Source: a virus. Taken from it: 20,457 nt of DNA. Under the pieces are notes generated by a model. It was not told the DNA's origin, made no database searches, and was given only the letters and a program-made list of their open reading frames with translations. The stretch lies in the IMG/VR virus record IMGVR_UViG_3300025652_000715, positions 1 through 20,457 of that record. One strand, written 5' to 3'. The first letter of the stretch is position 1; each line of letters starts with the position of its first letter. Below are positions 172 through 19,338 of the stretch, one piece after another. A program made the position numbers and the translations under genes.

Positions 172-1206
172 ATGATTAGATTTAAGCGGTACTTGTCAGA
201 AGCAACTCTTGCGGGCAAGTCAACTAACGGTACTCCAAATGCAATGAAGTATGTTGTTGACAATCCTAAAGCCATGGAGATAGAGTATGAAATTGAAAAA
301 GGCAAAAAGAATGTACCTGTCTTTGAATTAACTTCAGCGGGTACCGCCGGCTCTCCCATTCGTACAATTGAAGCTGGTCAAAAGTTCAAACTTAGATCAA
401 AAAAACTGATTAGCTTGGATGAGTATTATCCATCTAACAGAAATCCTTTTGGTTTAGACACTGAACTGGGAGTTATACCCATTAGCTTCGTTCGTAAGCC
501 TTCAGGCTTTAAAGCTATGGATGCTGAAATTATTGCTACCAATTCTCTTGATACTGAAATCAAAAAAGCTGTAAGTGAGAATGATGGTAAAGGTATCACA
601 GTCAAGATAGGTAAGTTTACAATCAAAGATGTTGTCGCTGCAGGATCAGATCACATCAAAGGTGATCCCAAGGCAGATATCGCACTCATGGATTCTAGAG
701 GTAAAGAAGTAGGATTTATATCGCATAAAAAAGAGGGTGGTGCTAAAGGATTCTCACAATATGGTGGTATCTCTATGTCTTCTGGATTAAAGCATAAAGA
801 GATTGAATCGTTTATAAAAGCTATAGAAGACCACTATAACGGAGAGTCCGTCAAATCTGGCGATGCATTCTTTAGACTACTCAAAGACCCAAAACTAATC
901 AATGCATCTATCTATGGTCCAGAATACGGTGGTAGTTTTGGCAGAGAAAACGTCCATTGCATTGGTCAAGGTAATCCCCTTTTGACTAAAAATAGAAATG
1001 TTTGGGAACTCGAATTTTCTGAAACTATGCATGTCAATGGCGATTATCGTTTTGCGACTAATGGTAAATTTACTGCAGTCTTCGGTGCCACTTATAGATC
1101 GGGTCGTAAAATAAGATCGGCTTCAGGTAATGAAGTCAGAAATATTCGTGCAGCAATATATCCTATAGCGTATATGGAAACGAGAAAGAAGTTAAAGGAA
1201 CTGTAA
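172..1206 (+). CDS. Capsid-tag-bearing phage protein, possible nuclease-like core
   Basis: 344 residues with no family I can name surely. The N-terminus, MIRFKRYLSEA, resembles the T4 internal-protein capsid-targeting sequence and holds a possible prohead-protease site (LSE before Ala11). Around residues 164-199 is a highly patterned segment: GDPKADIAL, a turn (DSRGKEV), then GFISHKKEGG and a Gly/Gln-rich FSQYGG. An Asp on one strand followed by a Lys on the next (D169, K186) recalls PD-(D/E)XK nuclease cores, but the usual acidic residue before xK is replaced (SHK), so this is weak. The rest is mixed alpha/beta without membrane segments. The start has a GGAAAG ribosome site and a perfect late promoter upstream. 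Its TAA shares one base with the next ATG (TAATG), implying coupled translation. Product named by tag and context, function inferred only. Confidence 0.85.
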   Translation: MIRFKRYLSEATLAGKSTNGTPNAMKYVVDNPKAMEIEYEIEKGKKNVPVFELTSAGTAGSPIRTIEAGQKFKLRSKKLISLDEYYPSNRNPFGLDTELGVIPISFVRKPSGFKAMDAEIIATNSLDTEIKKAVSENDGKGITVKIGKFTIKDVVAAGSDHIKGDPKADIALMDSRGKEVGFISHKKEGGAKGFSQYGGISMSSGLKHKEIESFIKAIEDHYNGESVKSGDAFFRLLKDPKLINASIYGPEYGGSFGRENVHCIGQGNPLLTKNRNVWELEFSETMHVNGDYRFATNGKFTAVFGATYRSGRKIRSASGNEVRNIRAAIYPIAYMETRKKLKEL

Positions 1207-2435
1207 TGTTAAAATTTTCATCGTTTCTAGCAGAAGAGAAGAATACTCATATGGAACACCTTGAGGATGCTATCCTCAACGCAGGTGTAAATGGCGCGAG
1301 ACAGGCAATCAACCATCTAAGAGCATTGCGTGATATGCTTGCAGGTAACACTAATGCTCCCGTGAACGTGACAATTAAGTGGGACGGCGCGCCGGCGGTG
1401 TTTGCTGGAACTGATCCTAGTGATGGTAAGTTCTTTGTCGCAAAGAAAGGTATCTTCAATAAGAATCCTAAAATATATAAATCAAACTCTGATATAGATG
1501 ATGACACCTCAGGTGATTTGAATACAAAATTGAAGCTGGCACTAAAGCACTTGCCAGCACTTGGCATTAAAGGAGTAGTTCAAGGTGATTTCTTATATTC
1601 GCGGGAGGATATCAAGGACATTGATATTGACGGAGAACCGCATATTACTTTCCATCCTAATACGATTGTTTATGCGATACCAAAGAAAAGCGAACTCGCA
1701 AAAACAATACTTAAATCCAGAATCGGAGTGGTTTGGCACACTACGTACCGAGGAGACTCTTTTGAAACAATGTCTGCTAGTTTTGGAGAGGAGATTGCAA
1801 GCGGTCTCAAAAAAACTTCAGAAGTCTGGTCGTTAGACGCAACGTACAGAGATTTGTCAGGTTCAGCTACAATGACGAAAGCTGAAACAAAAGCGGTGAC
1901 AGATATTCTTTCAAATGCAGGTAGACTATTCAGAAAGCTAGATCGAAAAGTTCTTGACGGTATATCGGACGATCCAGAAAGACTAATGCGAACAAAGGTT
2001 TTTGTCAATAGTAAAATTCGTGAAGGTCAGCGCATCGGAAATCCTAAGAAATTTGTCGATGATCTTGTCAAGTACATCAACGATTACTATGGTAAAGAAG
2101 AATCCAAGCGTACATCTGAAAAAGGTAAAATCACTCAGCGTCAGAAAAACGAAACTGTGCTCGAATACTTCAACAGAGTTGACAAGCGCGAGATTGTCAA
2201 GATGTTTGAGATGTACAATCTACTGATAGACGCTAAGTTGATTATCATAAAAAAACTTGACAAGGCAAAACAGATCGACACGCTATTGCTTACACCTAAC
2301 GGATACAAAGTAACAGGTCAAGAAGGATTTGTTGCAATCGATCACACGGGAAAGAACGCAATAAAACTTGTTGACAGATTGCAATTCTCACACGCAAATT
2401 TCTCATCAGATATTATCAAGGGTTGGGATAAGTAA
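1206..2435 (+). CDS. Ligase-superfamily-like nucleotidyltransferase with capsid tag (DUF6267-like)
   Basis: 409 residues. I recognise the family (DUF6267-like) from marine T4-like phages, where it is usually unannotated. The sequence TIKWDGAPAVF puts a KxDG box at residues 58-61, the adenylylated-lysine motif I of DNA/RNA ligases and capping enzymes. Further boxes are in order: GVVQGDFLY (123-131, motif III-like), EGFVAI (373-378, motif IV-like) and AIKLVD (385-390, motif V-like). The spacing between III and IV is much longer than in ordinary ligases, so a helical insertion (about 200-350) must be assumed. The N-terminus MLKFSSFLAEE carries the same tag seen on other proteins here, close to T4 internal-protein leaders. 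Coupled to the preceding gene by TAATG. Catalytic activity and substrate are inference; it could be a non-catalytic relative. Confidence 0.85.
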   Translation: MLKFSSFLAEEKNTHMEHLEDAILNAGVNGARQAINHLRALRDMLAGNTNAPVNVTIKWDGAPAVFAGTDPSDGKFFVAKKGIFNKNPKIYKSNSDIDDDTSGDLNTKLKLALKHLPALGIKGVVQGDFLYSREDIKDIDIDGEPHITFHPNTIVYAIPKKSELAKTILKSRIGVVWHTTYRGDSFETMSASFGEEIASGLKKTSEVWSLDATYRDLSGSATMTKAETKAVTDILSNAGRLFRKLDRKVLDGISDDPERLMRTKVFVNSKIREGQRIGNPKKFVDDLVKYINDYYGKEESKRTSEKGKITQRQKNETVLEYFNRVDKREIVKMFEMYNLLIDAKLIIIKKLDKAKQIDTLLLTPNGYKVTGQEGFVAIDHTGKNAIKLVDRLQFSHANFSSDIIKGWDK

Positions 2436-2438
2436 TTA

Positions 2439-2446
2439 CATAAATA
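2439..2446 (+). promoter_or_regulatory. Possible degenerate late promoter
   Basis: CATAAATA, one mismatch from the late consensus, lies 31 bp before the start at 2478, the same distance as for the perfect octamer at 133. Position supports it; the mismatch at the first base and AT-rich surroundings weaken it. Confidence 0.4.
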
Positions 2447-2477
2447 GCAGAAACATGTTATATATTAAGGTAGACAT

Positions 2478-3203
2478 ATGAGCAAGTATTATCCAGTAGA
2501 AGACACATTCTTGAACGCCTCTCGTGGTTTGATTAAGGGTGGTTCAGTAAGAAACATTTTCGGCAAAGCACTTGGTACAGGCTCAATTGTGACTGCTGAA
2601 TATAGAACGCCATGGGAACTCGCCAGTAACTACGCTTTTCCTACAGCGGCGTCTGTAATGAGTATTGTGAGTACAAGCGAAACAGATGACTCACAAATAC
2701 TAGTCTCTGGATTGGATATTAACTTTGAGCCAGTATCACAAGTCGTTACTCTAACTGGGTTGACTCCAGTTATCACTACAGTAGAATTTTATCGCATCAA
2801 CGATCTTGTTGAACTCAGCGATAATTTGGCAGGAGATGTGACTGCTTCTGCTGGTGGTACAGTTTATGGTAAAATAATTTCTGGAACTGGTAAGATGCAG
2901 TCTGCACACTATACTGTACCTGCAGGACATTGTTTCTATCTATATCGTATCGACGCCTTTGCAACGGATTCGAATGGTGGTAAAGCTGCTTTCTTTAGAA
3001 ACTATGTTGGTAACAACACGGCAAATACTATATTCAGAGTTGCTGAAACACAGTTCTTCAACAACATGAATATCGTAAGACGATTCCCATTCAAATATGA
3101 TCAAAAGTCTGACATTAAATTGCAATTGAAATCTTCTTCGGGTTCAATTGACGGTTCTATTTTTGCTGAAGGATTGCTTTTAGCTGAGCCACTAGGCGGC
3201 TGA
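2478..3203 (+). CDS. Probable virion-associated protein, unknown role
   Basis: 241 residues, rich in Ser, Thr, Gly and Val with alternating hydrophobic residues, suggesting a mostly beta fold. There is no signal peptide, membrane helix, catalytic motif or capsid tag. Starts MSKYYPVEDTF; the middle (about 120-150) has a Gly/Ala/Thr-rich turn region, and the part after residue 165 is more charged. I recall related proteins of unknown function from T4-like marine phages but cannot name one. It stands alone as a transcription unit, with a degenerate late promoter before it, an AAGG ribosome site about 9 bp before ATG, and a strong 12-bp-stem terminator 32 bp after the stop. Being singly transcribed late fits a high-copy structural or decoration protein, which is inference only. 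Confidence 0.8.
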   Translation: MSKYYPVEDTFLNASRGLIKGGSVRNIFGKALGTGSIVTAEYRTPWELASNYAFPTAASVMSIVSTSETDDSQILVSGLDINFEPVSQVVTLTGLTPVITTVEFYRINDLVELSDNLAGDVTASAGGTVYGKIISGTGKMQSAHYTVPAGHCFYLYRIDAFATDSNGGKAAFFRNYVGNNTANTIFRVAETQFFNNMNIVRRFPFKYDQKSDIKLQLKSSSGSIDGSIFAEGLLLAEPLGG

Positions 3204-3234
3204 TATTTTGTCACATGTGCGTATTACGCATAAC

Positions 3235-3272
3235 GGGGTTGAGAGTTTAACAAGACTCTCGACCCCTTTTTT
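3235..3272 (+). terminator. Strong rho-independent terminator
   Basis: A 12-bp stem (GGGGTTGAGAGT 3235-3246 with ACTCTCGACCCC 3255-3266, one T-G wobble) around an 8-base loop, followed by six Ts. It ends the single-gene unit at 2478-3203 and stands 13 bp before the next late promoter. Confidence 0.9.
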
Positions 3273-3284
3273 CTGCACCTGCAT

Positions 3285-3292
3285 TATAAATA
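3285..3292 (+). promoter_or_regulatory. T4-type late promoter
   Basis: A perfect TATAAATA, located just after a strong terminator and 47 bp before the DUF1127 gene. The expected start of transcription is near 3298. A clear AGGAGAA ribosome site follows before the ATG at 3340. Confidence 0.75.
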
Positions 3293-3339
3293 TGCGTATG
3301 AGCAAAGGCTCAATTACACAACACATACAGGAGAAATAA

Positions 3340-3573
3340 ATGTCACATGCAATGATATATGCAAAGGGCATTCTAGCAGAGTGTATAATATCACTCGTGG
3401 AATTGATCGACGACATTAAGCTATCACACAAACACAGAAAAGATGTTAATAGAACAATCTCAGAATTGAGCAAGCTTACAGACAGAGAACTTGCTGATTT
3501 AGGCATGAATCGTGGAATGATTCGACAGGTTGCAGAAGGTACAGTTAATTGCGAAGGTCGTATTGCGAAATGA
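3340..3573 (+). CDS. DUF1127-type small protein
   Basis: 77 residues. The C-terminal half contains LSKLTDRELADLGMNRG followed by a basic helix, the hallmark of DUF1127 (YjiS-like), a domain abundant as short proteins in alphaproteobacteria. In bacteria some members act in RNA-related regulation and phosphate or arginine metabolism; others are uncharacterised. Here it has an unusual 35-residue N-terminal extension that is hydrophobic (MIYAKGILAECIISLVELI) and may associate with membrane or form a helix bundle. An AGGAGAA site 6 bp before ATG and a perfect late promoter upstream imply late expression. The stop overlaps the next start (ATGA). A host-derived regulator captured by the phage is the simplest reading; its effect on the host is unknown. 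Confidence 0.88.
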   Translation: MSHAMIYAKGILAECIISLVELIDDIKLSHKHRKDVNRTISELSKLTDRELADLGMNRGMIRQVAEGTVNCEGRIAK

Positions 3574-3722
3574 ACATTCTTTCAAAATTATTAAATAGAT
3601 TTATGAGAGCATTCGAAATAGCTGGGTATCTTAGGGCAGGTAACGTTATGCGACAGTATGGTCTAGACGAACACGCAAAAAGTTGCTTTACTATGGCTAA
3701 CGAGCTAAGAGCGAAAAAATAA
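3570..3722 (+). CDS. 50-residue basic small protein coupled to DUF1127 gene
   Basis: A 50-codon frame begins with the ATG that overlaps the DUF1127 stop (ATGA) and ends with TAA at 3720-3722. The protein begins MNILSKLLNRFMRAFEIAGY and ends LRAKK: short, basic, two likely helices. It resembles in style the tiny DUF1127/YjiS-like proteins that occur in tandem in alphaproteobacteria, but lacks the DRELxDIG box, so I do not assign the family. Translation is probably coupled, as no separate ribosome site is visible. The terminator at 3750-3775 closes both genes as a bicistronic late unit. The overlap, ORF length filling the gap, and the following terminator are the case for a real gene. Confidence 0.7.
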   Translation: MNILSKLLNRFMRAFEIAGYLRAGNVMRQYGLDEHAKSCFTMANELRAKK

Positions 3723-3724
3723 TA

Positions 3725-3743
3725 AATAGACTTGAGGTCTATT
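3725..3743 (+). other. Perfect inverted repeat overlapping an AATAAATA element
   Basis: AATAGAC (3725-3731) and GTCTATT (3737-3743) form a perfect 7-bp stem with a TTGAG loop, directly after the stop at 3722 and 6 bp before the true terminator. It overlaps AATAAATA (3721-3728), one mismatch from the late promoter octamer. It could protect the 3' end, be a protein-binding dyad, or be chance in an AT-rich gap. Confidence 0.45.
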
Positions 3744-3749
3744 AATCAC

Positions 3750-3775
3750 AAAGGCGGGCTTCGGCGCGCCTTTTT
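3750..3775 (+). terminator. Rho-independent terminator with UUCG tetraloop
   Basis: AAAGGCG (3750-3756) pairs with CGCCTTT (3767-3773), then a G-G mismatch and two GC pairs close a TTCG tetraloop (3760-3763). The stem runs into five Ts. It ends the DUF1127 unit and separates it from the methyltransferase gene. Confidence 0.88.
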
Positions 3776-3823
3776 CTGTTTAGAGACTATAACTTTAGTA
3801 ACGATCTAATATGGAATATAGTA

Positions 3824-4462
3824 ATGACCACGCATAAAGAACTTACATCATACAGAGAATGTGGACACGAAGGTGTCGATGAACTTCTTTGGGTTACCAC
3901 AGATACAGGCGCTTTTGGTCACGAAAATGATGGACCTCTTAGAGACTGGATAAAAGGTAAAGACAACATATTAGAACATGCTGAAAAATTTGACACTGTT
4001 GTTCAGGCTGGCGGAAACTGTGGAATGTACGCTAGATTTTACAAGAATTATTTTAAAGAAGTCTATACATTCGAACCCGATGAACTTAACTACTACTGCT
4101 TAGACGCAAATTGTCAGGGAGAAGATTTTCATAAGTTTCTAGGTGGACTCGGAAACACTAGAGAGAAGTTTTCACTAAAAGCTGGTAGTGAGACTAATGT
4201 TGGAACGCATAAAATTGTTGAATCCGCTGGGGATGTACAGATGTACATGTTAGATGACATGAACCTAAACCATTGTGATTTAATTCACTATGACTTAGAA
4301 GGTTATGAAGAAACTGCACTTAAAGGATCGATAGAAACTATAAAAAGATTTAAGCCTGTTATCGTGGTAGAAAGACTTAGTGGAAGCGATTTACTAGAAA
4401 ATCTGGGCTATAAAGAACACGGTAGAACTTTCATGGACCACATCTATATTTACAATGCATAA
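3824..4462 (+). CDS. FkbM-family SAM-dependent methyltransferase
   Basis: 212 residues. A Rossmann-type SAM site is visible: VVQAGGNCGMYARF (59-72, glycine loop) followed by an acidic strand end FEPD (83-86). The FkbM signature appears as IHYDLEGYEETALKGS (154-169). FkbM enzymes O-methylate sugars or other small groups; in phages they are linked to glycan or lipopolysaccharide modification, substrate unknown. The start has only a weak GGA site, and no good promoter is visible after the terminator 49 bp upstream, so its expression is unclear. Its last 8 bases overlap the next gene, a sulfotransferase-like enzyme, so the two probably act on the same surface or virion glycan. Both look AT-richer and less phage-core than neighbours, consistent with recent acquisition. 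Confidence 0.88.
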   Translation: MTTHKELTSYRECGHEGVDELLWVTTDTGAFGHENDGPLRDWIKGKDNILEHAEKFDTVVQAGGNCGMYARFYKNYFKEVYTFEPDELNYYCLDANCQGEDFHKFLGGLGNTREKFSLKAGSETNVGTHKIVESAGDVQMYMLDDMNLNHCDLIHYDLEGYEETALKGSIETIKRFKPVIVVERLSGSDLLENLGYKEHGRTFMDHIYIYNA

Positions 4463-5096
4463 TTTTTATATATTCGGTCTACAGAGATCAGGCACAAATT
4501 TTATCGAAACCATAATGCAAAAAAATTTCGAGTGTAAGAAAGGTAACAATGCTACTGTTTGGAAGCACTCAATAGATGTGCCATTAGAATATGACGAATC
4601 TTTAAAGACAATCGTGATACACAAAAATCCATATACTTGGGTTGAGTCTATAGCATATAGAACCAGCATTGATTGGATCGATACGCAGACAACATATGAT
4701 CCATTAGAGTATTCAAAATTCTGTACGATAGGTAAGAAGAGAAAGTTTAATGTTATAAATCTATGCAAAACTTACAAGCACTTTCATGACACATGGTTAC
4801 CTCGGGCTGATATGATTATAAGATATGAAGATTTGCTCATACCAGAGAAACGCGATAATATCATATCTCGTATACATACAGACTTGCATATACCAAAGAA
4901 ATATGTTGTAGATAATACATGGGAAATACCTGAAAAGGGCACAATATCGCTATCAAGAAAATATGACGATTCGCGTGAACAATACTACATAAAAGGTCAA
5001 CCAGAACACTTGAATGATCGTATAGTATTCGCCATCAATCACACTGTAACACCCGAATTGATACGAGATATGGGATATAATGTCTTAGGTCAATAG
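4455..5096 (+). CDS. Sulfotransferase-like protein
   Basis: 213 residues. The N-terminal FGLQRSGTNFIETIM (7-21) matches the phosphosulfate-binding loop (5'-PSB) of PAPS-dependent sulfotransferases, which resembles a P-loop. HKNPYTWVESI (56-66) matches the 3'-phosphate-binding region, and IRYEDLL (122-128) is the typical RYEDL box. These give good support for the sulfotransferase fold; the acceptor is unknown. ATG lies inside the methyltransferase frame (8-base overlap), so translation is likely coupled. Together the pair would methylate and sulfate a carbohydrate, possibly host surface sugar after infection or a phage glycan. The unit is flanked by the terminator at 3750 and the late promoter at 5100, as an inserted cassette would be. 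Confidence 0.8.
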   Translation: MHNFYIFGLQRSGTNFIETIMQKNFECKKGNNATVWKHSIDVPLEYDESLKTIVIHKNPYTWVESIAYRTSIDWIDTQTTYDPLEYSKFCTIGKKRKFNVINLCKTYKHFHDTWLPRADMIIRYEDLLIPEKRDNIISRIHTDLHIPKKYVVDNTWEIPEKGTISLSRKYDDSREQYYIKGQPEHLNDRIVFAINHTVTPELIRDMGYNVLGQ

Positions 5097-5099
5097 ATG

Positions 5100-5107
5100 T
5101 ATAAATA
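5100..5107 (+). promoter_or_regulatory. T4-type late promoter
   Basis: A perfect TATAAATA just after the stop at 5096 and 54 bp before the start at 5162. It would drive the long run of virion and cargo genes that extends to the terminator at 12274. Expected transcription start near 5113. Confidence 0.78.
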
Positions 5108-5113
5108 ACACGT

Positions 5114-5143
5114 ATCACAGTGAGTCTACGGAAAACCTGTGAT
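5114..5143 (+). promoter_or_regulatory. 5'-leader hairpin
   Basis: ATCACAG (5114-5120) and CTGTGAT (5137-5143) are perfect complements around a 16-base loop. The stem would sit at the very 5' end of the late transcript and leaves the AGGAG ribosome site (5151-5155) free. A role in transcript stability is possible; this is inference. Confidence 0.4.
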
Positions 5144-5161
5144 GGAAAATAGGAGAACAAA

Positions 5162-7576
5162 ATGTCAGACGATGTTGAAAAGAAGGCTGAAAAAAAGCCA
5201 TCGAAAAAAGATGAAAAGATTATCAAAAACACTATCGAAGTGAATCCTACGTTAAAAGAGCAAACTGAAAAGACAGTTGTGTTAGGATGGGGTCGTATGA
5301 ACCCAGTGACAGTTGGTCACGAAAAACTCGCAAACAAGATCAAGTCTGTTGCAAAGAAAAGCAACGCAACTCCTTTGATCTATCTCACACATTCCCATGA
5401 TCCGAAGAAAAACCCTTTGAAGTATGACGATAAGGTCACTCTTGCTAAGAAAGCATTCGGTCGTGATGTTGTACAAAAGTCCAAATCAAAAACAATCATT
5501 CAAGTAATGCAAGAACTAGATGGTAAGTATGACAATGTTATCGTTGTCGTGGGTCAAGATCGCATTGCAGAATTCGAAAAGCTTCTCACAAAATATAATG
5601 GTAAAGATTACACATTCGATAGCATCAAAATTGTATCAGCAGGTGATAGGGATCCAGATGCAGAAGGTGTCGAAGGTATGTCCGCATCAAAGATGAGAGC
5701 CGCGGCAGCGTCAGGTAAAAAGGATGACTTTATGTCAGGTCTACCAAAGGCTCTTCAGCGCGACGGAGAAAAGGTATATGATATGGTTCGTTCTGGTATG
5801 AATATTAACGAAGAAGTCGATCTTGAAGAAGATCGTGAACCTATGACACGCACACAACGCCGCAATATGGCTATCGCAATGCGCCGTAATAAATCAAAGA
5901 TTGCAGCAGGTCGTCGTAGAGCCGCAAATCGTAAGCCTACACCTGAGAAGATTAAGATACGCGCTAATAAGCGCGCCCGCGATATCATCAAGAAGAAAGT
6001 CATTGGCAAATCTGGAATGTCGTATGACGAACTAAGCGATTCGCAAAAGCAAATGATAGACAAAAAAGTGATGAAGCGTCAGGCTGCCATAAAGCGTCTT
6101 GCAAAAAAACTCATTCCAAAAATTAGATCAGAAGAACTTGATATTAACGCAGCGTTTACTCTCAATGAAGATTTTGAAACTTTGGTTGAACGTAAGACAC
6201 CACAAGATGACAATATCAAAGACATGGAAGGCACACAGCCTAAAAAGTATTATAGCGGTGTGAAGAAATCTGAAAAAGATGATCGCGCTCGTCACTTTGC
6301 TAAGGGTGCAAAAATGGACGATGATAATCCAGCTGCATACAAGCCAGCACCAGGTGATGAAGATGCTGAGACAAAACCATCTAAGCATACCAAGAAGTAT
6401 AAAGAGATGTTTGACGAAGCCTCAGAAAATGATGTTAAACCTAGAAAGCGATATCACAATCTACTAAACTCTAACGGTACACCTAAAATTGATATGCGTT
6501 TCAAAGCGTTTCGTGCAAAGAAGCCTATGACTGAAGAGTTTGAAAATGACACGCAAGTTATCAATCTTATCGACAATATCTGGGAATCAGTTGAACTTGA
6601 AGAAAGCAAGACAGATGCCGCACTTCAGAAGAAGGCTGACAAGACTGAAATCTCAAAAAGCATTCTAAAGAATGTTTATGATAGAGGTGTTGCAGCATGG
6701 CGCACTGGTCATAGACCTGGTACTACCCCAGCGCAATGGGGTATGGCGAGAGTAAATAGTTTTGTCACAAAGGGCAAAGGTACATGGGGCAAAGCTGATT
6801 CTGATCTGGCTGCAAAAGTTCGTAGTGAAGAAGTTGAACTAGACTCATTCTTTGACTTGAACGAACAGCTTGAACTTACTGAAGCGTCAATTCTCGACAA
6901 AGCACTTGCTGCAGTACATAAGCACGTTCTCGGTGGAACTGAACTTGGGGACATTGCATATCAAGTATCTCGTGCGCGTGGCGTAGACATGTCTGGTCGT
7001 GAACTTGAAAAGGCGTATGTAAGCAAATACGGCAAACCTGATACAGATAAAAAAGTTAATCCAGAATTACGTGCAAGACTCATGAAGAAATATAGCGTCA
7101 AGGAAGAGCATGGCGCAGGCGACGAAGGAACTGACAAGCTTACTAAGAAGTATAAGAAAGATACTCCTGGTGAAGATATGAACGAATCTTTTGACTCGTT
7201 GATGGAAGCCGAATGTCAGCTAATTGGCATGAAACAAATCAAACAGTTTGAAAAAGTTGTTGATGAACTGTTCAAGAAGTTTGATATTGACTTCAACTTT
7301 ACAAAGCACTTCGGTGAACGTATGAGTGATGGCAGAAACACTCCTTGTATCACACTCAAAGAGTTGGCTGCATTTATCAAGAAGATTTACGCAAAGCAAG
7401 GTAAATCGATCAAAGGCGTTGCTGGCGCAGAAGCTGTCATCAAAGACATCCAAAGTGACTTGAATATTCCTGTTGCTGTTACTTACGACACGAAAAACGA
7501 TGAATTCGATGTTGTCATGAAAACTATCATGCGCAAGAAGAACTTCAAGAGTCCAGATAAAGTGATTACATACTAA
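5162..7576 (+). CDS. Mosaic virion protein with N-terminal nucleotidyltransferase domain
   Basis: 804 residues in several modules. Residues 38-205 are a cytidylyl/adenylyltransferase-like (HIGH superfamily) domain: GWGRMNPVTVGH gives the TxGH box (50-53) and GMSASKMR (172-179) the C-terminal ISSTxxR-like box, as in NMN or phosphopantetheine adenylyltransferases. Residues 226-325 are a very basic helical segment. Residues 501-554 contain VYDRGVAAWRTGHRPG and WGMARVNSF, a conserved marine-phage domain (I believe DUF5824). Residues 705-804 form another small domain (KHFGERMSDGRN, TIMRKKNF). Linkers carry prohead-protease-like sites: LTE/A 572-575, LME/A 680-683, with looser LEE/D and LNE/D. Strong AGGAG site and late promoter. 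I read it as an internal or scaffold-like virion protein cut during maturation; enzyme substrate unknown. Confidence 0.85.
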   Translation: MSDDVEKKAEKKPSKKDEKIIKNTIEVNPTLKEQTEKTVVLGWGRMNPVTVGHEKLANKIKSVAKKSNATPLIYLTHSHDPKKNPLKYDDKVTLAKKAFGRDVVQKSKSKTIIQVMQELDGKYDNVIVVVGQDRIAEFEKLLTKYNGKDYTFDSIKIVSAGDRDPDAEGVEGMSASKMRAAAASGKKDDFMSGLPKALQRDGEKVYDMVRSGMNINEEVDLEEDREPMTRTQRRNMAIAMRRNKSKIAAGRRRAANRKPTPEKIKIRANKRARDIIKKKVIGKSGMSYDELSDSQKQMIDKKVMKRQAAIKRLAKKLIPKIRSEELDINAAFTLNEDFETLVERKTPQDDNIKDMEGTQPKKYYSGVKKSEKDDRARHFAKGAKMDDDNPAAYKPAPGDEDAETKPSKHTKKYKEMFDEASENDVKPRKRYHNLLNSNGTPKIDMRFKAFRAKKPMTEEFENDTQVINLIDNIWESVELEESKTDAALQKKADKTEISKSILKNVYDRGVAAWRTGHRPGTTPAQWGMARVNSFVTKGKGTWGKADSDLAAKVRSEEVELDSFFDLNEQLELTEASILDKALAAVHKHVLGGTELGDIAYQVSRARGVDMSGRELEKAYVSKYGKPDTDKKVNPELRARLMKKYSVKEEHGAGDEGTDKLTKKYKKDTPGEDMNESFDSLMEAECQLIGMKQIKQFEKVVDELFKKFDIDFNFTKHFGERMSDGRNTPCITLKELAAFIKKIYAKQGKSIKGVAGAEAVIKDIQSDLNIPVAVTYDTKNDEFDVVMKTIMRKKNFKSPDKVITY

Positions 7577-8022
7577 TGATACGCTTTAAACATTATATCA
7601 GCGAGTTGCATATATGGCAACCAACTAAAGCTCAAACTAAAGGCATCGCACGTGGTGACATGCCTCAAGTGAGAACATCCGACTACGAAGAATTGATAGA
7701 ATTTCTTCGCACTAAGGACATAAAACTAAAGAAGATGAAAGTGAAAGCTAGTGCATTGAAAGCTACGCAGCGCAACTTTAATGTTGATAAAATTACAAGT
7801 GCTGCTCAGAACTATTCAACGCTACACAAGGCTAAACCAATCATCGTAAGTTCAGATAATTATATTATCGATGGGCATCATAGATGGTTAGGTGCTGTGA
7901 ATGTTGGTGGCGATATCGACATATATAAAGCAAACGTGAACGTCAATGAACTTCTAGACGCAGTTAAAGAATTCCCGAAATCATTCACAAAAAATATTAA
8001 TGAGGAAACCAATGACATTTAA
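7576..8022 (+). CDS. ParB-like domain protein with capsid tag
   Basis: 148 residues. KPIIVSSDNYIIDGHHRW (87-104) is the characteristic box of the ParB N-terminal/sulfiredoxin-like fold (PI.VS.D.YIIDGHHR), whose members bind or hydrolyse nucleotides (CTP in ParB, or DNA in ParB-like nucleases). A preceding segment, KASALKATQRNF (57-68), fits the fold's first half. The N-terminus MIRFKHYISEL is nearly identical to that of the gene at 172 (MIRFKRYLSEA) and ends in a possible prohead-protease site (ISE before Leu11), suggesting packaging into the capsid. No helix-turn-helix DNA-binding domain follows, so a plasmid-partition role is unlikely. Start shares one base with the preceding stop (TAATG). 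Activity not predictable from sequence alone. Confidence 0.85.
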   Translation: MIRFKHYISELHIWQPTKAQTKGIARGDMPQVRTSDYEELIEFLRTKDIKLKKMKVKASALKATQRNFNVDKITSAAQNYSTLHKAKPIIVSSDNYIIDGHHRWLGAVNVGGDIDIYKANVNVNELLDAVKEFPKSFTKNINEETNDI

Positions 8023-8464
8023 ATTATCAAAAAGATCGCTAAACAAACTCGAAGGCGTGAAGCCAGAACTTATCAGAGTTGTAAATCGTGCAATTGAACT
8101 TTCAAGCGTAGACTTTGGTGTTATACAGGGTATGAGAACAGTCGAAGAGCAAAGACAACTTGTTGCTAAAGGTGCTTCACAGACGATGAAATCTAAGCAT
8201 TTGACAGGTGATGCAGTCGATCTTATGGCATACATCGGATCACGTGGATCGTGGGAACTTAATCTATACGACAACATCGCAGACGCTATGAAAGCTGCTG
8301 CTTTGGAAGAGGATGTGAAGATTCGCTGGGGTGCAGCATGGCAGATTTCTGACATCCGTGATTGGGATGGTACGATGCAAGACGCTATGGATGCATACAT
8401 TGATCTTCGCCGTTCGCAGGGTAGACGCCCGTTCATCGACGGTCCACATTTCGAATTGAACTGA
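8012..8464 (+). CDS. Endolysin, L-alanyl-D-glutamate peptidase type (M15)
   Basis: 150 residues from the ATG at 8012. SKHLTGDAVDL (61-71) is the SxHxxGxAxD zinc motif of M15 peptidases (zinc ligands H63 and D70), and GPHFEL (144-149) supplies the third ligand H146. IRWGAAW (104-110) and GMRTVEEQ (40-47) also match phage M15 endolysins such as the T5 enzyme, which cut the L-Ala-D-Glu bond of peptidoglycan stem peptides. No signal peptide or transmembrane arrest signal is present, so release from the cytoplasm would need a holin. An earlier in-frame ATG at 8000 would add four residues, but GAGGAAA (8002-8008) is well placed for 8012. Overlaps the ParB-like gene end by 11 bases. It sits among capsid-tagged genes yet lacks the tag. 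Confidence 0.92.
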   Translation: MTFKLSKRSLNKLEGVKPELIRVVNRAIELSSVDFGVIQGMRTVEEQRQLVAKGASQTMKSKHLTGDAVDLMAYIGSRGSWELNLYDNIADAMKAAALEEDVKIRWGAAWQISDIRDWDGTMQDAMDAYIDLRRSQGRRPFIDGPHFELN

Positions 8465-8465
8465 T

Positions 8466-8759
8466 ATGAAGTCTTTTAGTTCTTATATCAGTGAAGGTGT
8501 TATGCTACAGTTCATACGTGGCAAAGATCAAGATGTTCTAAAGATGTGGGACACTAAAGAAAAAAGCTGGGTAGAACTTCGTGGTAAAAAGGGGTTCGAG
8601 ACTACCTACGATGCAAAAGATCCTCTACACAGGGCGATTACTGCACTTGGCAAGTCTGCTAACATATCGGATTTTATGAATGGCGATGTTGTCAACATAA
8701 ATCCAAATCACCCAGACGCGAAGAAAGCTTTGAAGACAATACAGGGACTAATGAAGTGA
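8466..8759 (+). CDS. Small capsid-tag-bearing protein, unknown function
   Basis: 97 residues. The N-terminus MKSFSSYISEG closely parallels the T4 internal-protein leader (MKTYQEFIAEA) and the other tags in this window, with a possible cleavage site ISE before Gly11. The remainder is a small alpha/beta domain with a basic-polar stretch (WVELRGKKGFETTYD) and a C-terminal helix ending KTIQGLMK. No known motif is visible. It starts two bases after the endolysin stop and its TGA overlaps the next start (GTGA). Most likely a packaged internal protein of about 9 kDa after trimming; that role is inferred from the tag. Confidence 0.82.
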   Translation: MKSFSSYISEGVMLQFIRGKDQDVLKMWDTKEKSWVELRGKKGFETTYDAKDPLHRAITALGKSANISDFMNGDVVNINPNHPDAKKALKTIQGLMK

Positions 8760-9310
8760 AGACACTTAAAAAGCACATATACGAATCGACTGTAAAGGAA
8801 GGCGTAGATTATCACGTCAAAAATGAAATACCGTTATCGGAATGCGTGTTTCGTCCTCACTCAGAATGTTTCTACGAATTCTTTGTTGAAGCGCGAAAGC
8901 AATTCAACGAAGGTAAGCTAGACCTCTATAGTAAGTTTGACATCGACATGATGGGAACCGATATTGGCGAAAGAGCGATTTATGAAGATGAGATTGTTCC
9001 ACTTGACATACCGTTGATGGAATCAGAATACAACGGAAAAGATGTTGAATTAAATCAGCCAAAACGTGGTGGTAAAAAGAAGTATTACGTGTATGTCAAG
9101 AATGATAAGGGTAATGTAATTAAAGTACAGTTCGGTGACACGACAGGATTGACAGCTAAGATTGATGATGTTAAGGCGAGAAAATCTTTTGCGGCTCGCC
9201 ATAACTGTGATCAAAAGACTGATAAGACAAAGGCTGGTTATTGGGCATGTCGTTTACCTTACTATGCAAAACAACTTGGACTTTCAGGTGGTGGAAACTT
9301 TTTCTGGTAG
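8756..9310 (+). CDS. Capsid-tag-bearing protein with C-terminal DUF5872-like domain
   Basis: 184 residues starting with GTG, chosen because it overlaps the upstream stop (GTGA) and yields MKTLKKHIYES, the same tag pattern seen on neighbours. Residues 15-88 form a helical domain with several acidic residues. A second possible prohead-protease site, LME before Ser90, divides it from residues 105-184, a highly conserved basic module (KKKYYVYVKNDKGN; FAARHNCDQ; GYWACRLPYYAKQLG) that I know from marine T4-like phages and believe is DUF5872. Two cysteines and a histidine (H149, C151, C165) could bind a metal. Function unknown. Maturation cleavage would free the C-terminal basic domain as a DNA-associated peptide; that is inference. 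Confidence 0.85.
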   Translation: MKTLKKHIYESTVKEGVDYHVKNEIPLSECVFRPHSECFYEFFVEARKQFNEGKLDLYSKFDIDMMGTDIGERAIYEDEIVPLDIPLMESEYNGKDVELNQPKRGGKKKYYVYVKNDKGNVIKVQFGDTTGLTAKIDDVKARKSFAARHNCDQKTDKTKAGYWACRLPYYAKQLGLSGGGNFFW

Positions 9311-9588: not shown

Positions 9589-11256
9589 ATGACTAATAAG
9601 TTATCTGCATCTTTCATCAAGGCTTTCGGTGAAAAAACTGCTCAGTTAAACCCAAAGGCAGTAGTCAATGAGGAAACTAGTAGAACCATTATCGAACGTA
9701 AAATCTCGGAACTATCTTCCAAGATCAATGCAGCACGTATTGGTGGTACAGGTCACATTGGCAAACTGACTGAAGAGAAAGCACTTCTACAGCATCAGCT
9801 TGCATCACTGAATGAGACCTCTAAGATTGAACGTATTAGTGAAGCTATGGATCCAGTTAATCCAAAAGCAGTGAAAAAGAAGTTTGATGATCGTAAAGAC
9901 AAAGACATTGACAATGATGGTGATGTTGATTCCTCTGACGAATATCTACACAAGCGCCGTAAAGCTATCTCAAAAGCTATGAAGAAAGAAGAAGTTGAAC
10001 TTGATGAAGTTTCAAACGCAGTTAAAGATCAGTTGGGCAACATCGACCTATCAATCCGCGATTGGGAAAGACGTTGGAAAAATAAGAGTGCTGGTAATCC
10101 AAATGACATGAAGGCACCTCAGAAAATCCAGGATCTGAAAGCGCAAAAGGCTGCGCTCATGAAAAAACATGGTATCAAAGAAGCTGTAGACCTAGACGAG
10201 GCTGGTCCAAAGATGAAGCCAGACTTCGTGAAGACTCAGCGAGCAAAAGATGCTGCGCACAACGCTGCAATGGGTCGCACTGCTACAGGTCGTAAGAAGC
10301 CAGTTCGTACAATGACTTCCACCCAAAGATCAATGGCTTCTATGAAGAAAGAAGAACTTGAGCTTGATGAAAAGGTCAACGAAAAAGCAATCAAAAAAGC
10401 TGTTGATGACGGTAAGTCTATGGACGTTATTGTCGGCATGTTTGCTAACAAGCGCACGACAAACACAGATGAAATTCGTCAAGTTGTGAAAGACTACATG
10501 TGGAATAAGCGCATGAAGAAAGAAGAAGTTGAAAATCTTAAAGAATTGACTGCTTTCGAAAAGAAACTGATTAACCAAATGTATGATAAGAAAGGCAACC
10601 TAACACCAATTGGTAAGAAGGTGATGGATGCTGGACAAAAGAAAGAAGAAGTTGAAAATCTTAAAGAATTGACTGCCAAACAACGCGCTCTTGCAAAGGC
10701 TGATGATGAAGCTAAATCAAAGGACAAAGTTTCATTGAAGAAAGCACCTTGGGATACAAAAGAAGAAGTTGCTGAATCAGTTGGTCTAACGCAGACACTC
10801 ATAGAAAAAGCTCTTTCAAAGAAACAACAGATGGCAGCAGGTGCGGCACTCGCAGCAAAGCGTGGAGATGCAGATCCTTCTGAACTCGTTGGCGCATCAA
10901 AAGAGATGTACGATAGTATGTCAGAGAAAGACCTAGAAGACTTTGCCAAGACGAAGCATAAAGGTCTTCCTATGAAGAAAGAAGAAGTCGAACTTGATGA
11001 AGCCTACACAATCAATCACAAGACTTTCTCTGCAGCCGTTCAACATGCGAAAGCACAAGTAGAAAAGCAAGGCTACACTATCGATGATGACGAATGGGAT
11101 CGTAAAGTTGCGATGGGTCCAAAGAAGCCTGGTACAGGTAAGACCAATCGTTACACAATCGAATTGATGAAAAACGGAAAGCCTACTAAGCGTATGCTTC
11201 AAATGCAAGTTTACTACGATGAAGGTCGTTACGAACTTAACATGTATGTATCGTAA
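9589..11256 (+). CDS. Repeat polyprotein-like virion protein with KKEEVELDE linkers
   Basis: 555 residues, mostly basic helical segments separated by about seven copies of an acidic linker: MKKEEVELDE (131-140), KEAVDLDEA (197-205), MKKEELELDE (252-261), MKKEEVENLKEL (309-320), KKEEVENLKEL (351-361), KEEVAESV (391-398) and MKKEEVELDEA (462-472). Many end in hydrophobic-x-Glu, the T4 gp21 prohead-protease pattern; ISE/A (83-86), LDE/A (202-205) and LDE/A (469-472) fit best. Residues 107-118 (DIDNDGDVDSSD) form an EF-hand/dockerin-type calcium loop. Residues 473-555 are a separate alpha/beta domain. AAGGA site 9 bp before ATG. I infer a head-internal precursor cut into several peptides, like T4 gp22 and the internal proteins. 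Related repeat proteins occur in marine T4-like phages without known function. Confidence 0.85.
   Translation: MTNKLSASFIKAFGEKTAQLNPKAVVNEETSRTIIERKISELSSKINAARIGGTGHIGKLTEEKALLQHQLASLNETSKIERISEAMDPVNPKAVKKKFDDRKDKDIDNDGDVDSSDEYLHKRRKAISKAMKKEEVELDEVSNAVKDQLGNIDLSIRDWERRWKNKSAGNPNDMKAPQKIQDLKAQKAALMKKHGIKEAVDLDEAGPKMKPDFVKTQRAKDAAHNAAMGRTATGRKKPVRTMTSTQRSMASMKKEELELDEKVNEKAIKKAVDDGKSMDVIVGMFANKRTTNTDEIRQVVKDYMWNKRMKKEEVENLKELTAFEKKLINQMYDKKGNLTPIGKKVMDAGQKKEEVENLKELTAKQRALAKADDEAKSKDKVSLKKAPWDTKEEVAESVGLTQTLIEKALSKKQQMAAGAALAAKRGDADPSELVGASKEMYDSMSEKDLEDFAKTKHKGLPMKKEEVELDEAYTINHKTFSAAVQHAKAQVEKQGYTIDDDEWDRKVAMGPKKPGTGKTNRYTIELMKNGKPTKRMLQMQVYYDEGRYELNMYVS
10516..10676 (+). repeat. Two identical 38-bp direct repeats within the repeat protein gene
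   Basis: 10516-10553 and 10639-10676 are identical over 38 bases and encode the same linker (KKEEVENLKELT). They are 123 bp apart (41 codons, in frame). Base identity, not only amino acid similarity, indicates a recent duplication or gene conversion of one linker-plus-segment unit. Further linker copies near 9979, 10341 and 10974 are related but diverged. Confidence 0.9.
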
Positions 11257-11515: not shown

Positions 11516-12259
11516 ATGGCACTTTGGGGTAATAAAGATACCAAAGCTGTAACTGGTACGGTTGCAGTCACTGAAACGGACACTGCAGTAACAGGTACAG
11601 CAACAGACTTTGTAACAGAACTTGCTTCAGGACAAACTCTTGTGATCGCATCTGTTCCGTATAAAATCGCGGCTGTTGCTAACACAACATCAATCGAACT
11701 TGAGACAGCGTATGCTGGTACCACGGCAAGCGGTCTTACCGTAACTGCCAATGAATCGCCTGCATATGTTCCACACGCAGATAAGCCAGAAGTATATGGT
11801 GTAGATGCAGTAGAAGCTGCAGAGCTACCAGAACTCACACACGCTGGTTGGGTGAAGAGAACTGTTGGTACAGGTGGTCGTGCAGGACGCGTGACATATG
11901 AAACACTTGTTGCGATGGGTTCAATCTCTGGTGACGCAGAAGACACAGTATTTGTTGACGCGACAATCACAATTGGAACACAGCCAGTAGCAGCTAGTGT
12001 AACAGCACCAGATGCAACATCATTCACAGTAACAGCAACTGCAACACAAAGCGCAGTTATCGCTTACGCATGGCAAGTTTCTGATGACGCAGGTGTTACA
12101 TGGGTATCAGCAACTGGTGGAGTATATTCTGGCGAAAATACAGACACACTTGCAATCTCAGACTCAACTGGTCTAGATACATACCTATATCGTTGCGTGT
12201 TGACAGCAACTGGTGCAGCTACAGTCACATCTGACGAAGCTGAGCTTACAGTAGCATAA
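11516..12259 (+). CDS. Virion structural protein with C-terminal Ig-like domain
   Basis: 247 residues. The N-terminal half starts MALWGNKDTK and contains the conserved THAGWVKRTVGTGGRAGRV (108-126) and YETLVAMG, a family I recall in structural-gene regions of T4-like marine phages. From about residue 150 to the end is an Ig-like/PKD-type beta sandwich: ITIGTQPVA, the core AYAWQVSDDAGVTW (183-196) and YLYRCVLTATG (223-233), with the typical Trp and Y-x-C pair. Such domains decorate phage virions and may hold carbohydrates loosely. Strong AGGAGAG ribosome site. A terminator follows 15 bp after the stop. Composition is very rich in Thr, Ala and Val, as usual for beta-rich surface proteins. Exact location (head, neck or tail) is not clear. 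Confidence 0.85.
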   Translation: MALWGNKDTKAVTGTVAVTETDTAVTGTATDFVTELASGQTLVIASVPYKIAAVANTTSIELETAYAGTTASGLTVTANESPAYVPHADKPEVYGVDAVEAAELPELTHAGWVKRTVGTGGRAGRVTYETLVAMGSISGDAEDTVFVDATITIGTQPVAASVTAPDATSFTVTATATQSAVIAYAWQVSDDAGVTWVSATGGVYSGENTDTLAISDSTGLDTYLYRCVLTATGAATVTSDEAELTVA

Positions 12260-13610: not shown

Positions 13611-14657
13611 ATGAATCACATTGACTTGAAATACTGTGGTATATTATCAACACGACTCGATCAATACGAAATAAAACAGACTAATCCTTATGAAGCAAAC
13701 TTTAGATGCTTTATATGTGGCGATAGTAAGAAATCCTCGAATAAGAAACGTGGTTGGATGCTTGACAAGGGCAACAAGGCGTTTTATTATTGTCATAACT
13801 GTGGTTACTCAAAACCAATCGACTATTTTTTGAAGCATAATTTTTCATCTCTATATGATGAATATGTTACTGATATTATTCTTGAGAAGAAATCTCTAAA
13901 CAGATCACTGCCTAAGAAGAAAGACATAAAACCTCTTGACAAGCTTGTTATGGCTCAGCCTAAATTCACGAGTAAATCGTCACCTCTGAGTCGCATCAAA
14001 AAAGTATCATCATTACCTGCATCTCATCCAGTGAAACAATATGTAGAGAATCGTAAGATACCTGCAAAACATCACTATCGATTGTACTATGCTCCAAAGT
14101 TCAATAAGTGGGTCAATAGTATCATACCCAAAAAACTAGATGACACTTATGATGAACCTCGTCTTGTCATACCTTTGATTGATAAGAATGATACGATGTT
14201 CGGCTTTGCTGGCAGGTCGTTTAAACCTAAGTCTTCTCTACGCTATATATCTATTATGATAGACGATACGCAATCAAAGATTTTTGGTTTAGACACTGTT
14301 GATTTTGATAAGAAGTATTATGTTGTTGAAGGTCAAATTGATAGTCTATTTTTGACAAATGCAGTTGCGATGGCTGGTGCTGACGGCAATACACGCGCAT
14401 TAGAATCACTTGATAACGCAGTATTTATGTTCGACAATGAACCCAGAAATATTGAGATTGTGCATCGTATGGAGAAAGTTATTGAACGTGGTAATAAGAT
14501 TGTCATACTACCAAGCTCAGTTTCAAAGTATGGAAAAGATATAAATGAAATGGTGTTGAACGGTTTACGAACGGCAGATATAGAGTTGCTACTTGATAAT
14601 AACACATATTCAGGTCTAGAAGCAAAGCTTGCATTAACGATATGGAAGAGGGTCTAA
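13611..14657 (+). CDS. 61: DNA primase, T4 gp61-like
   Basis: 348 residues, matching T4 gp61 (about 342). The N-terminal zinc finger has CFIC (33-36) and CHNC (61-64), which in primases reads the template. The TOPRIM catalytic core has VVEGQIDSLF (238-247, the E-G box with Glu240), MFDNEPRN (273-280, Asp275) and the KDINEM box (309-314), as in gp61. The enzyme makes RNA primers for lagging-strand synthesis together with the gp41 helicase, which is not in this window. AAGAGG ribosome site. First gene behind a perfect sigma70 promoter. Its stop overlaps the next start by one base (TAATG). Primase ahead of nucleotide synthesis genes makes one early replication unit. Confidence 0.95.
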   Translation: MNHIDLKYCGILSTRLDQYEIKQTNPYEANFRCFICGDSKKSSNKKRGWMLDKGNKAFYYCHNCGYSKPIDYFLKHNFSSLYDEYVTDIILEKKSLNRSLPKKKDIKPLDKLVMAQPKFTSKSSPLSRIKKVSSLPASHPVKQYVENRKIPAKHHYRLYYAPKFNKWVNSIIPKKLDDTYDEPRLVIPLIDKNDTMFGFAGRSFKPKSSLRYISIMIDDTQSKIFGLDTVDFDKKYYVVEGQIDSLFLTNAVAMAGADGNTRALESLDNAVFMFDNEPRNIEIVHRMEKVIERGNKIVILPSSVSKYGKDINEMVLNGLRTADIELLLDNNTYSGLEAKLALTIWKRV

Positions 14658-15139
14658 TGAGTATTAACGCGATTTTAGCCATGGATAACAACATTGGAAT
14701 TGGTCATGAAAACGATTTGCCATGGCCACGCAATAGAAAAGATATGAAATGGTTTCGCGAATGTACGATAGGTAATGTAGTTGTCATGGGTCGCAATACA
14801 TGGGAGTCGTTTGGATCAAAGTCTTTACCAAATCGTATAAATGTAGTAGTTACCAATAGAGAAGTCGAAGGTGATCCTGATGATGTCGTCTCAGGGGATT
14901 TAGATGGTATTCTAGAACTTATCGGGCACAAATATCCACAGCTAGATATTTTCGTCATTGGGGGTGCCAACATATATAGACAGGCTCTACCTTTCTGCGA
15001 TAAACTTTATGTTACACGCATAAATGGTGTTTACAAGTGTGACACTTTCATGTATAATCAAGACTTCGATGGTTTTGATGTGCAGGAATATATTGATTCG
15101 AATCAGGATTTAACAATACAGATTAGGAGTAGATCATGA
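14657..15139 (+). CDS. frd: Dihydrofolate reductase
   Basis: 160 residues from ATG 14657. It reduces dihydrofolate to tetrahydrofolate with NADPH, regenerating the cofactor used by the thymidylate synthase downstream. Visible marks: INAILAMDNNIGIGHENDLP (3-22, substrate and loop region), Asp29 in RKDMKWF (catalytic acid), VVVMGRNTWESFG (41-53, NADPH site), LPNRINVVVTN and the FVIGGANIYRQAL box. An in-frame ATG at 14642 would add MEEGL but lies inside the primase; the GAAGAGGGT ribosome site supports 14657. Overlaps both neighbours by 1 and 4 bases. Order frd then td, as in T4, though a small gene is inserted between them here. Confidence 0.95.
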   Translation: MSINAILAMDNNIGIGHENDLPWPRNRKDMKWFRECTIGNVVVMGRNTWESFGSKSLPNRINVVVTNREVEGDPDDVVSGDLDGILELIGHKYPQLDIFVIGGANIYRQALPFCDKLYVTRINGVYKCDTFMYNQDFDGFDVQEYIDSNQDLTIQIRSRS

Positions 15140-15363
15140 CTGATCTTTTTGTAGAATGCAGTTGTGTATCACGATACAGCATAGAACCACAAGATAGTGA
15201 TTATGCTCTCTACTATGGGCGTTGCAGGCATCGTCATGGATACAATCTTGTTACTATGGTAGATCCAGCTTTTAACTTTGAGCTACGTCATATAGAAAAA
15301 CTAATTAATCTCGGTGATAAAGAATATGAAAAAAATCCAGATGGAGGACATTTAGCGGAATGA
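15136..15363 (+). CDS. Small Cys/His-containing protein, unknown function
   Basis: 75 residues between dihydrofolate reductase and thymidylate synthase, joined to both by four-base overlaps (ATGA), with an AGGAG site before the start. Composition is mixed; CSC (8-10) and CRHRH (30-34) could form a metal site, but there are only three cysteines and the pattern matches no family I know. The C-terminal half is charged and helical (FELRHIEKLINLGDKEYEKN). Its tight embedding in the folate/thymidylate cassette suggests regular co-expression; a direct link to that pathway is not shown. No homologue recognised. Confidence 0.75.
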   Translation: MTDLFVECSCVSRYSIEPQDSDYALYYGRCRHRHGYNLVTMVDPAFNFELRHIEKLINLGDKEYEKNPDGGHLAE

Positions 15364-16238: not shown

Positions 16239-16255
16239 AAATAAAGAGGTAATAA

Positions 16256-17227: not shown

Positions 17228-17242
17228 TAGGAGAAATAACTT

Positions 17243-18901: not shown

Positions 18902-18906
18902 GGCTA

Positions 18907-19338
18907 GTGTTAGTGAATAAGTGGCAAGAAGCATACATGGACACGGCAGAGCGTTTCGGCGCTCTGTCTACTGCCAATAGGCTTAAAGTTGGAGCAATCG
19001 CAGTTAAAGACAATCGTATCATCTCAATTGGATATAATGGTATGCCTTCCGGTTGGGATAACGTTTGTGAGTGGACTGTCGAAGATGCTATGGGTTATGA
19101 CACTGGAAAGACTAAACCAGAAGTCATACACGCAGAATCAAATTGCATCGCAAAACTTGCAGGTTCACACGAGAGTGGTAGAGGTGCAGAAATGTATGTG
19201 ACACATGCTCCTTGCATTGAATGTGCAAAACAGATATATAGTGCAGGTATATCGAAAGTATACTATAGAGAAACATATAGATCGAAAGATGGTCTAGAAT
19301 TCTTGCAAAAATGTAGAATAGAGGTAGAGCAGATATGA
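18907..19338 (+). CDS. cd: Deoxycytidylate (dCMP) deaminase
   Basis: About 143 residues. It converts dCMP to dUMP, substrate for the thymidylate synthase upstream, so the cassette can turn host DNA bases into dTTP. The zinc site is HAESN (His and the catalytic Glu) plus PCIEC (two Cys). The N-terminal domain has RLKVGAIAVKDNRIISIGYN, typical of the family. Start is uncertain: GTG at 18907 has GAGGG nine bases upstream; GTG at 18913 (beginning with NKWQEAYMD) has AGGG nine bases upstream. A TTG further up, inside the reductase gene, has no ribosome site. The stop overlaps the zinc-ribbon start (ATGA). Compared with T4 Cd (193 residues) it is short, close to bacterial and cyanophage forms. Confidence 0.93.
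   Translation: MLVNKWQEAYMDTAERFGALSTANRLKVGAIAVKDNRIISIGYNGMPSGWDNVCEWTVEDAMGYDTGKTKPEVIHAESNCIAKLAGSHESGRGAEMYVTHAPCIECAKQIYSAGISKVYYRETYRSKDGLEFLQKCRIEVEQI

Follow-up and report, generated by a model that had tools for sequence, protein, structure and literature searches.

Four described systems lie closest to the locus reported here: the ATP-dependent RNA ligases (of Naegleria, T. brucei [REL1], and bacteriophage T4 [Rnl2]); the adenylation domain of the NAD+-dependent DNA ligase LigA; the heal-and-seal pair of T4, i.e., polynucleotide kinase-phosphatase (Pnkp) and RNA ligase; and the T4 internal proteins IPI to IPIII and Alt, which share a capsid targeting sequence (PMC3012670). The locus is part of a separate virus record of 20,457 bases (IMG/VR record IMGVR_UViG_3300025652_000715), the whole of which was analyzed and is referred to here as the window; a megablast search of the window against phage records detected no near relative. 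An open reading frame (ORF) at positions 1206 to 2435 encodes a protein of the family DUF6267 (PF19782), to which Pfam, PHROGs, and nearly all of the phage records examined assign no function. No paper naming DUF6267 was found in the literature searched. On balance, we favor the view that DUF6267 is a new family of lysine-dependent ligase-type nucleotidyltransferases, and that the member described here is probably packaged in the phage head and injected. The novelty is that of a variant family within a known enzyme class, not of a new enzyme class.

The DUF6267 protein shares with the ATP-dependent RNA ligases a predicted nucleotidyltransferase core and the ordered motifs KxDG, G-(E,D), EG, and K, with about 180 residues superimposed. 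It differs from them in having no detectable sequence similarity to them, a stretch of about 130 inserted helical residues separating motif III from motif IV, a single lysine in motif V, and no C-terminal domain beyond motif V. ATP-dependent ligases usually have a second lysine in motif V; NAD+ ligases such as LigA have a single-lysine motif V, as does DUF6267. The KxDG motif I is likewise shared with the LigA adenylation domain, but no Ia signature, OB, helix-hairpin-helix, or BRCT domain was identified in DUF6267, and PF01653 gave no match. With the T4 internal proteins, DUF6267 shares a targeting-like N-terminal decapeptide ending in Glu; those proteins are inhibitors or an ADP-ribosyltransferase, and none is of the ligase type predicted for DUF6267. 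Relatives of the locus resemble the T4 heal-and-seal system in pairing kinase-like, phosphatase-like, and ligase-like genes. In contrast to T4, they use separate genes, several of them head-tagged, together with a different ligase family, and the window itself lacks both healing genes.

Predicted catalytic motifs of the DUF6267 family

The ORF encodes a full-length family member, with PF19782 matching residues 13 to 400 (E value, 1.1e-112; 377.6 bits against a curated cut-off of 27) and PHROG 455 matching at an E value of 1e-107. A preliminary description, made from the letters of the sequence, had called the product DUF6267-like and had read ligase-superfamily boxes at KxDG (residues 58 to 61) and, in order, GDFLY, EGFVAI, and AIKLVD. 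The family assignment was confirmed, and all four boxes were found, as KWDG at residues 58 to 61, GDFLY at 127, EGFVAI at 373, and AIKLVD at 385 (Table 1).

We collected relatives from viral contigs using five different DUF6267 queries and aligned 78 sequences with 25 to 75% identity to the window protein. The invariant residues included G30, K58, D60, G61, K81, P151, N152, T153, and H178, as well as N268, K344, E373, G374, K387, R391, F394, and N398. The lysine proposed as the nucleotide acceptor, K58, was thus kept in 78 of 78 homologs, and no aligned sequence had lost it. Because K58, D60, G61, E373, G374, and K387 are invariant down to 25% identity, the motif match is not a product of chance. 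The window protein has three of the features expected of the superfamily, namely, the lysine of a KxDG motif I, an acidic residue in motif III, and the glutamate of motif IV. Another invariant lysine, K81, is a possible motif Ia-like contact. In motif V, K387 is the single lysine; the position of the second is V389 in the window and is occupied by V or I in all members, and the invariant R391 may substitute for the second lysine.

The unusually long gap between motifs III and IV, also remarked on in the preliminary description, is a real and family-wide feature, since the spacing is 220 to 260 residues in most members and 160 to 179 in a short subfamily; in the predicted structure of the window protein, long helices occupy residues 225 to 352. 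A near-invariant H-x-x-H-x-E-D block (H-M-E-H-L-E-D, residues 15 to 21, positions 1248 to 1268) lies in the N-terminal helix preceding motif I. To our knowledge, this block has no counterpart in known ligases.

Table 1. Positions of the DUF6267 gene, its motifs, and other features in the window
Feature	Positions	Strand	Basis
Predicted PD-(D/E)XK nuclease, MspI/HhaI/HinP1I type, tag MIRFKRYLSE	172..1206	+	Invariant residues, VIA-align
DUF6267 protein, 409 aa, predicted ligase-type nucleotidyltransferase	1206..2435	+	Pfam, AlphaFold2, VIA-align
Tag MLKFSSFLAE, residues 1-10	1206..1235	+	T4 IPII/IPIII pattern, 74/81 close orthologs
Motif I, K58-W-D-G, predicted AMP-accepting lysine K58	1377..1388	+	K58, D60, G61 invariant in 78
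K81	1446..1448	+	Invariant lysine, 23 residues past K58
Motif III, Q126-G-D-F (D128)	1581..1592	+	Position 128: D in 77/78, E in 1/78
Helical insertion, residues 225-352, between motifs III and IV	1878..2261	+	AlphaFold2 secondary structure, length classes
Motif IV, E373-G-F-V	2322..2333	+	E373, G374 invariant
Motif V, K387-L-V-D-R391	2364..2378	+	K387, R391 invariant
Cytidylyltransferase/NMNAT-like protein	5162..7576	+	Pfam CTP_transf_like, E 1e-5; 42% identity over 170 aa to S-SZBM1_140
Tagged ORF MIRFKHYISE, ParB-like nuclease similarity	7576..8022	+	Tag; PHROG matches to ParB-like and related families
Tagged ORF MKSFSSYISE	8466..8759	+	Tag
Tagged ORF MKTLKKHIYE	8756..9310	+	Tag; phrog_7595

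Predicted fold and profile comparisons

The AlphaFold2 model of the window protein, built from a 75-sequence alignment, had a predicted local distance difference test score (pLDDT) of 91.5 and a predicted template modeling score (pTM) of 0.87. Structural comparison by VIA-align placed Naegleria RNA ligase first (Z score, 8.8 across 184 residues), followed by T. brucei REL1 (TbREL1; 8.3), T4 Rnl2 (7.6), archaeal RNA ligases (about 7), and DNA ligases (about 6). RNA or DNA ligases accounted for 46 of the top 50 rows, in keeping with the ligase nucleotidyltransferase core expected from the motifs; LigA-type structures were absent among these 50 rows, and the weak matches returned by Foldseek include the LigA structures 1b04, 5fpr, and 3jsl. 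Against a library of viral protein models, members of DUF6267 itself ranked first, including a 591-aa fusion with a cytidyltransferase domain from S-PM2, and RNA ligases were the first entries with a name to follow them (E values, 0.02 and 0.04). The model makes it very likely that DUF6267 has the fold of the ligase/capping-enzyme superfamily.

Sequence profiles were less informative. The Pfam profiles RNA_ligase, DNA_ligase_A_M, and RNA_lig_T4_1 did not match the window protein, nor did any family in NCBIfam, and sequence searches of the PDB with a single DUF6267 protein and with a profile returned unrelated low-score rows only. Among 75 DUF6267 members, RNA_lig_T4_1 was the sole ligase family touched (2 members; best E value, 0.07). 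Comparison by hhalign with relatives of T4 Rnl2 alone was misaligned. With 23 Rnl2-like ligases plus the T4 relatives, a DUF6267 core from which the insertion had been removed, after the motifs were already known, aligned over its full length, and motifs I, III, and IV fell into register. Among 151 controls, consisting of 150 column shuffles plus a reversed profile that scored 22.2, 5 matched or exceeded the score of this alignment (21.7). The profile-profile comparison with ligase families therefore did not reach significance, and only the motif register is used here.

An N-terminal capsid-targeting-like tag

The first 10 residues follow the pattern of the T4 IPII/IPIII start (MKTYQEFIAE), with Glu at position 10. 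In a survey of the 80 nearest DUF6267 loci, the tag was present on 74 of 81 DUF6267 proteins (that of the window among them) and on 128 of 582 forward ORFs, compared with none of 585 reverse-strand control ORFs. The capsid tag claimed in the preliminary description is thus borne out as a sequence feature. Beyond DUF6267, 55 further ORFs among those listed were tagged, a few of which are truncated DUF6267. Five ORFs of the window, all within positions 172 to 9310, begin with M-x-x-[FL]-x-x-[YFH]-[IL]-x-E; at internal positions, a more relaxed version of this pattern has a frequency of 0.11%. Residues 6 to 13 of the DUF6267 protein are disordered in the AlphaFold2 model. Most cyanophage members have no head tag, and many of these orthologs start with MAKNTH at the point where the tag ends, which gives the tag the appearance of a separable module. 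We consider it probable that the window protein is packaged in the phage head.

Distribution and ligase content of carrier phages

DUF6267 was present in 465 phage records, including 365 named Synechococcus, 61 named Cyanophage, and 24 named Prochlorococcus. The T4-type gp41 helicase was found in 376 Synechococcus-named and 61 Cyanophage-named records, and by this measure DUF6267 is nearly universal in cyanomyoviruses. In cyanophages, the gene sits between replication genes. The ligase profiles PF01068, PF01653, PF09414, and PF09511 had no match in eight complete DUF6267 phages (S-RSM4, P-SSM4, P-SSM2, S-CAM9, S-SCSM2R, S-SZBM1, HTVC008M, and the tagged Melnitz-3); T4 was detected by PF01068, PF09414, and PF09511. 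The counts take no account of phylogenetic dependence, and any of these phages could rely on a ligase of its host. According to Petrov et al. (PMC2993671), cyanophages often lack quasicore replication genes, among which gp30 is listed. We rejected the hypothesis that DUF6267 invariably stands in for an absent ligase, since DLP6, G406, G408, and G409 carry both.

Neighboring genes

The stop codon of the upstream gene (positions 172 to 1206) overlaps the DUF6267 start. Residues E119, K167-x-D169, S184-H185-K186, and Q196 are invariant in the family of its product, and the model, which is confident from about residue 118 onward, matched MspI (Z score, 7.9), HhaI (6.8), and HinP1I (6.5), with the next row at 4.0. 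In D169-x14-S-H-K186, a Ser occupies the position where E or Q usually precedes the active-site lysine. A homolog in S-CAM7 is annotated as a type-2 restriction enzyme. With a PD-(D/E)XK fold in the model and a D...xK active site, the protein looks like a nuclease, and this activity is predicted. Such a tagged nuclease would be unusual among virion-directed proteins.

End-healing-type genes occur in relatives. Haloacid dehalogenase (HAD) proteins of PHROG 415 (polynucleotide kinase) adjoin DUF6267 in 12 loci and are tagged in 9, and in 77 loci a P-loop kinase gene is located no more than about 3 kb from DUF6267. At one locus (L049), the nuclease, HAD protein, and DUF6267 genes are consecutive, and all three are tagged. 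The best Pfam matches of the P-loop kinase are Zeta toxin and AAA_33, and its similarity to the polynucleotide kinase PHROG 505 is weak. Searches of PDB sequences with one HAD and one kinase neighbor gave no convincing solved relative, and the HAD and kinase profiles were not found in the window. Tagged HAD phosphatase-like or P-loop kinase-like neighbors were seen at L005, L028, L030, L044, L049, L076, L390, L451, and L455 and, for the kinase, at L046.

A cytidylyltransferase/NMNAT-like gene lies downstream of DUF6267 in 206 of the 250 loci with enough flanking sequence, and the two are fused at three loci (two distinct contigs). Natural fusions are seen at L397 (positions 2941 to 4743), at L468, and in the S-PM2 protein A0A0M6VVW4; in the L397 protein, motif I is KGDG and motif III is the canonical SGEF. 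The family of this neighbor has been reported in virions of S-SM1 (PMC3037559) and, as protein _140, of S-SZBM1 (PMC9146016). Proteins of putatively the same subfamily were reported in virions of S-SCSM1 (PMC9602691) and S-CREM2 (PMC10665884), where the authors mention possible carry-over. Taken together, the neighboring genes support a nucleic acid-processing role for DUF6267.

Proposed role and alternatives

We predict that DUF6267 has ligase activity, which we regard as likely. K58 would take AMP to form a covalent K58-AMP intermediate, and the protein would pass the AMP to a 5'-phosphate and seal this end to a 3'-OH, as a polynucleotide ligase does. Its end-processing partners would be the nuclease in the window and, in relatives, neighbors of the 3'-phosphatase-like and kinase-like types; it would also act with the NMNAT-type nucleotidyltransferase. 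The N-terminal tag would bring the protein into the prohead, where, by analogy with T4, a gp21-type prohead protease would remove it after Glu10. DUF6267 would then enter the cell together with the phage DNA and mend either phage DNA, which is the substrate that we favor, or RNA. The untagged proteins of Kyanoviridae may act as the phage's own ligase. Two observations favor DNA, namely, the location of the gene in a replication cluster in cyanophages and its nuclease partner; RNA, the chief rival substrate, is suggested by the nearest folds, which are RNA ligases.

Several observations weigh against this proposal. In sequence, DUF6267 is not significantly similar to any family of ligases, and its motif V lacks the second lysine, its motif III has D and not the usual E, and neither an OB domain nor motif VI follows motif V. 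The structural matches are modest, in that Z scores below 9 stand little above background and the best Foldseek match against the PDB was weak (an archaeal DNA ligase; E value, 0.1). The four tagged carriers DLP6, G406, G408, and G409 also have an ordinary ligase; the tagged Melnitz-3 has no ordinary ligase detected. Finally, the virion protein list of S-SZBM1, the one DUF6267 carrier for which such a list was examined, includes the cytidylyltransferase (_140) but not DUF6267 (_141) (PMC9146016); the S-SZBM1 ortholog belongs to the largely untagged cyanophage group.

The best-surviving alternative is an RNA repair ligase that would reseal tRNA or mRNA after cleavage by anticodon nucleases of the host or by other defense ribonucleases, in the manner of T4 Pnkp and Rnl1, once phosphatase-like and kinase-like neighbors have healed the ends. 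The ranking of the Naegleria, TbREL1, and T4 Rnl2 folds and the end-healing-type neighbors in relatives speak for it. However, the upstream partner resembles a DNA restriction-type nuclease, the cyanophage gene is located among replication genes, and three near-complete tagged carriers already possess a T4 Rnl1-type ligase; we therefore hold RNA repair to be possible but doubtful.

Less probable still is an enzyme with this fold that transfers nucleotides without sealing strands and instead caps RNA or places AMP or GMP on a protein or small molecule, together with the adjacent NMNAT-like enzyme. The single-lysine motif V, the D of motif III, the H-x-x-H-x-E-D block, and a helical insertion unlike known ligases would suit such an enzyme, as would its frequent occurrence beside, or fused to, an NMNAT/cytidylyltransferase domain. 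Yet no RNA triphosphatase or methyltransferase was identified beside DUF6267 in relatives, and the nuclease and end-healing neighbors suit ligation better, which leaves this reading improbable. For capping in particular, there was no contextual support, and nothing that we saw prefers it to ligation.

A coincidental fold or dead relative, in which the motifs would be structural and the protein a noncatalytic DNA-binding or head component, could account for the missing sequence match to ligases and for Z scores below 9, which can arise among unrelated models, but is very improbable given the ordered invariant residues of catalytic type, the ligases in 46 of 50 rows, the agreement of the PDB and viral libraries, and the absence of the head tag from most cyanophage members.

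Returning to the polynucleotide ligase, one elaboration is a self-recharging version. DUF6267, whose single-lysine motif V resembles that of NAD+ ligases, would take AMP from NAD+ and free NMN, from which the NMNAT-like partner would remake NAD+ with ATP; with the tagged nuclease and end-healing enzymes, they would form a head-carried repair kit. We regard this elaboration as unlikely.

Other features of the window

Between the DUF6267 and cytidylyltransferase genes lie an FkbM-type methyltransferase gene (positions 3824 to 4462; Pfam E value, 7e-10) and an ORF that appeared sulfotransferase-like by eye (4455 to 5096). The ORFs at 5162 to 7576, whose product begins with the cytidylyltransferase domain, and at 9589 to 11256 encode long proteins with many acidic, L-x-E-rich repeats (EEVELDE-like) between domains, which recall prohead-core or protease-site linkers. 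The product of positions 11516 to 12259 is 35% identical, across 168 aa, to virion protein _136 of S-SZBM1 and matches a PHROG annotated as head protein. Positions 13611 to 19338, read by eye, form a run of replication and nucleotide-metabolism genes, i.e., a gp61-like primase, dihydrofolate reductase, thymidylate synthase, NrdB, a short NrdA (552 aa), and dCMP deaminase.

Implications for T4-like cyanophages

DUF6267 is among the most widespread genes of T4-like cyanophages that have no assigned function. If it is a ligase, it would explain DNA or RNA sealing in these abundant ocean viruses. If the proposal is true, a virion with tagged DUF6267, encoded next to genes resembling those of nucleases, kinases, and phosphatases, would be able to inject a nucleic acid repair set at the onset of infection.
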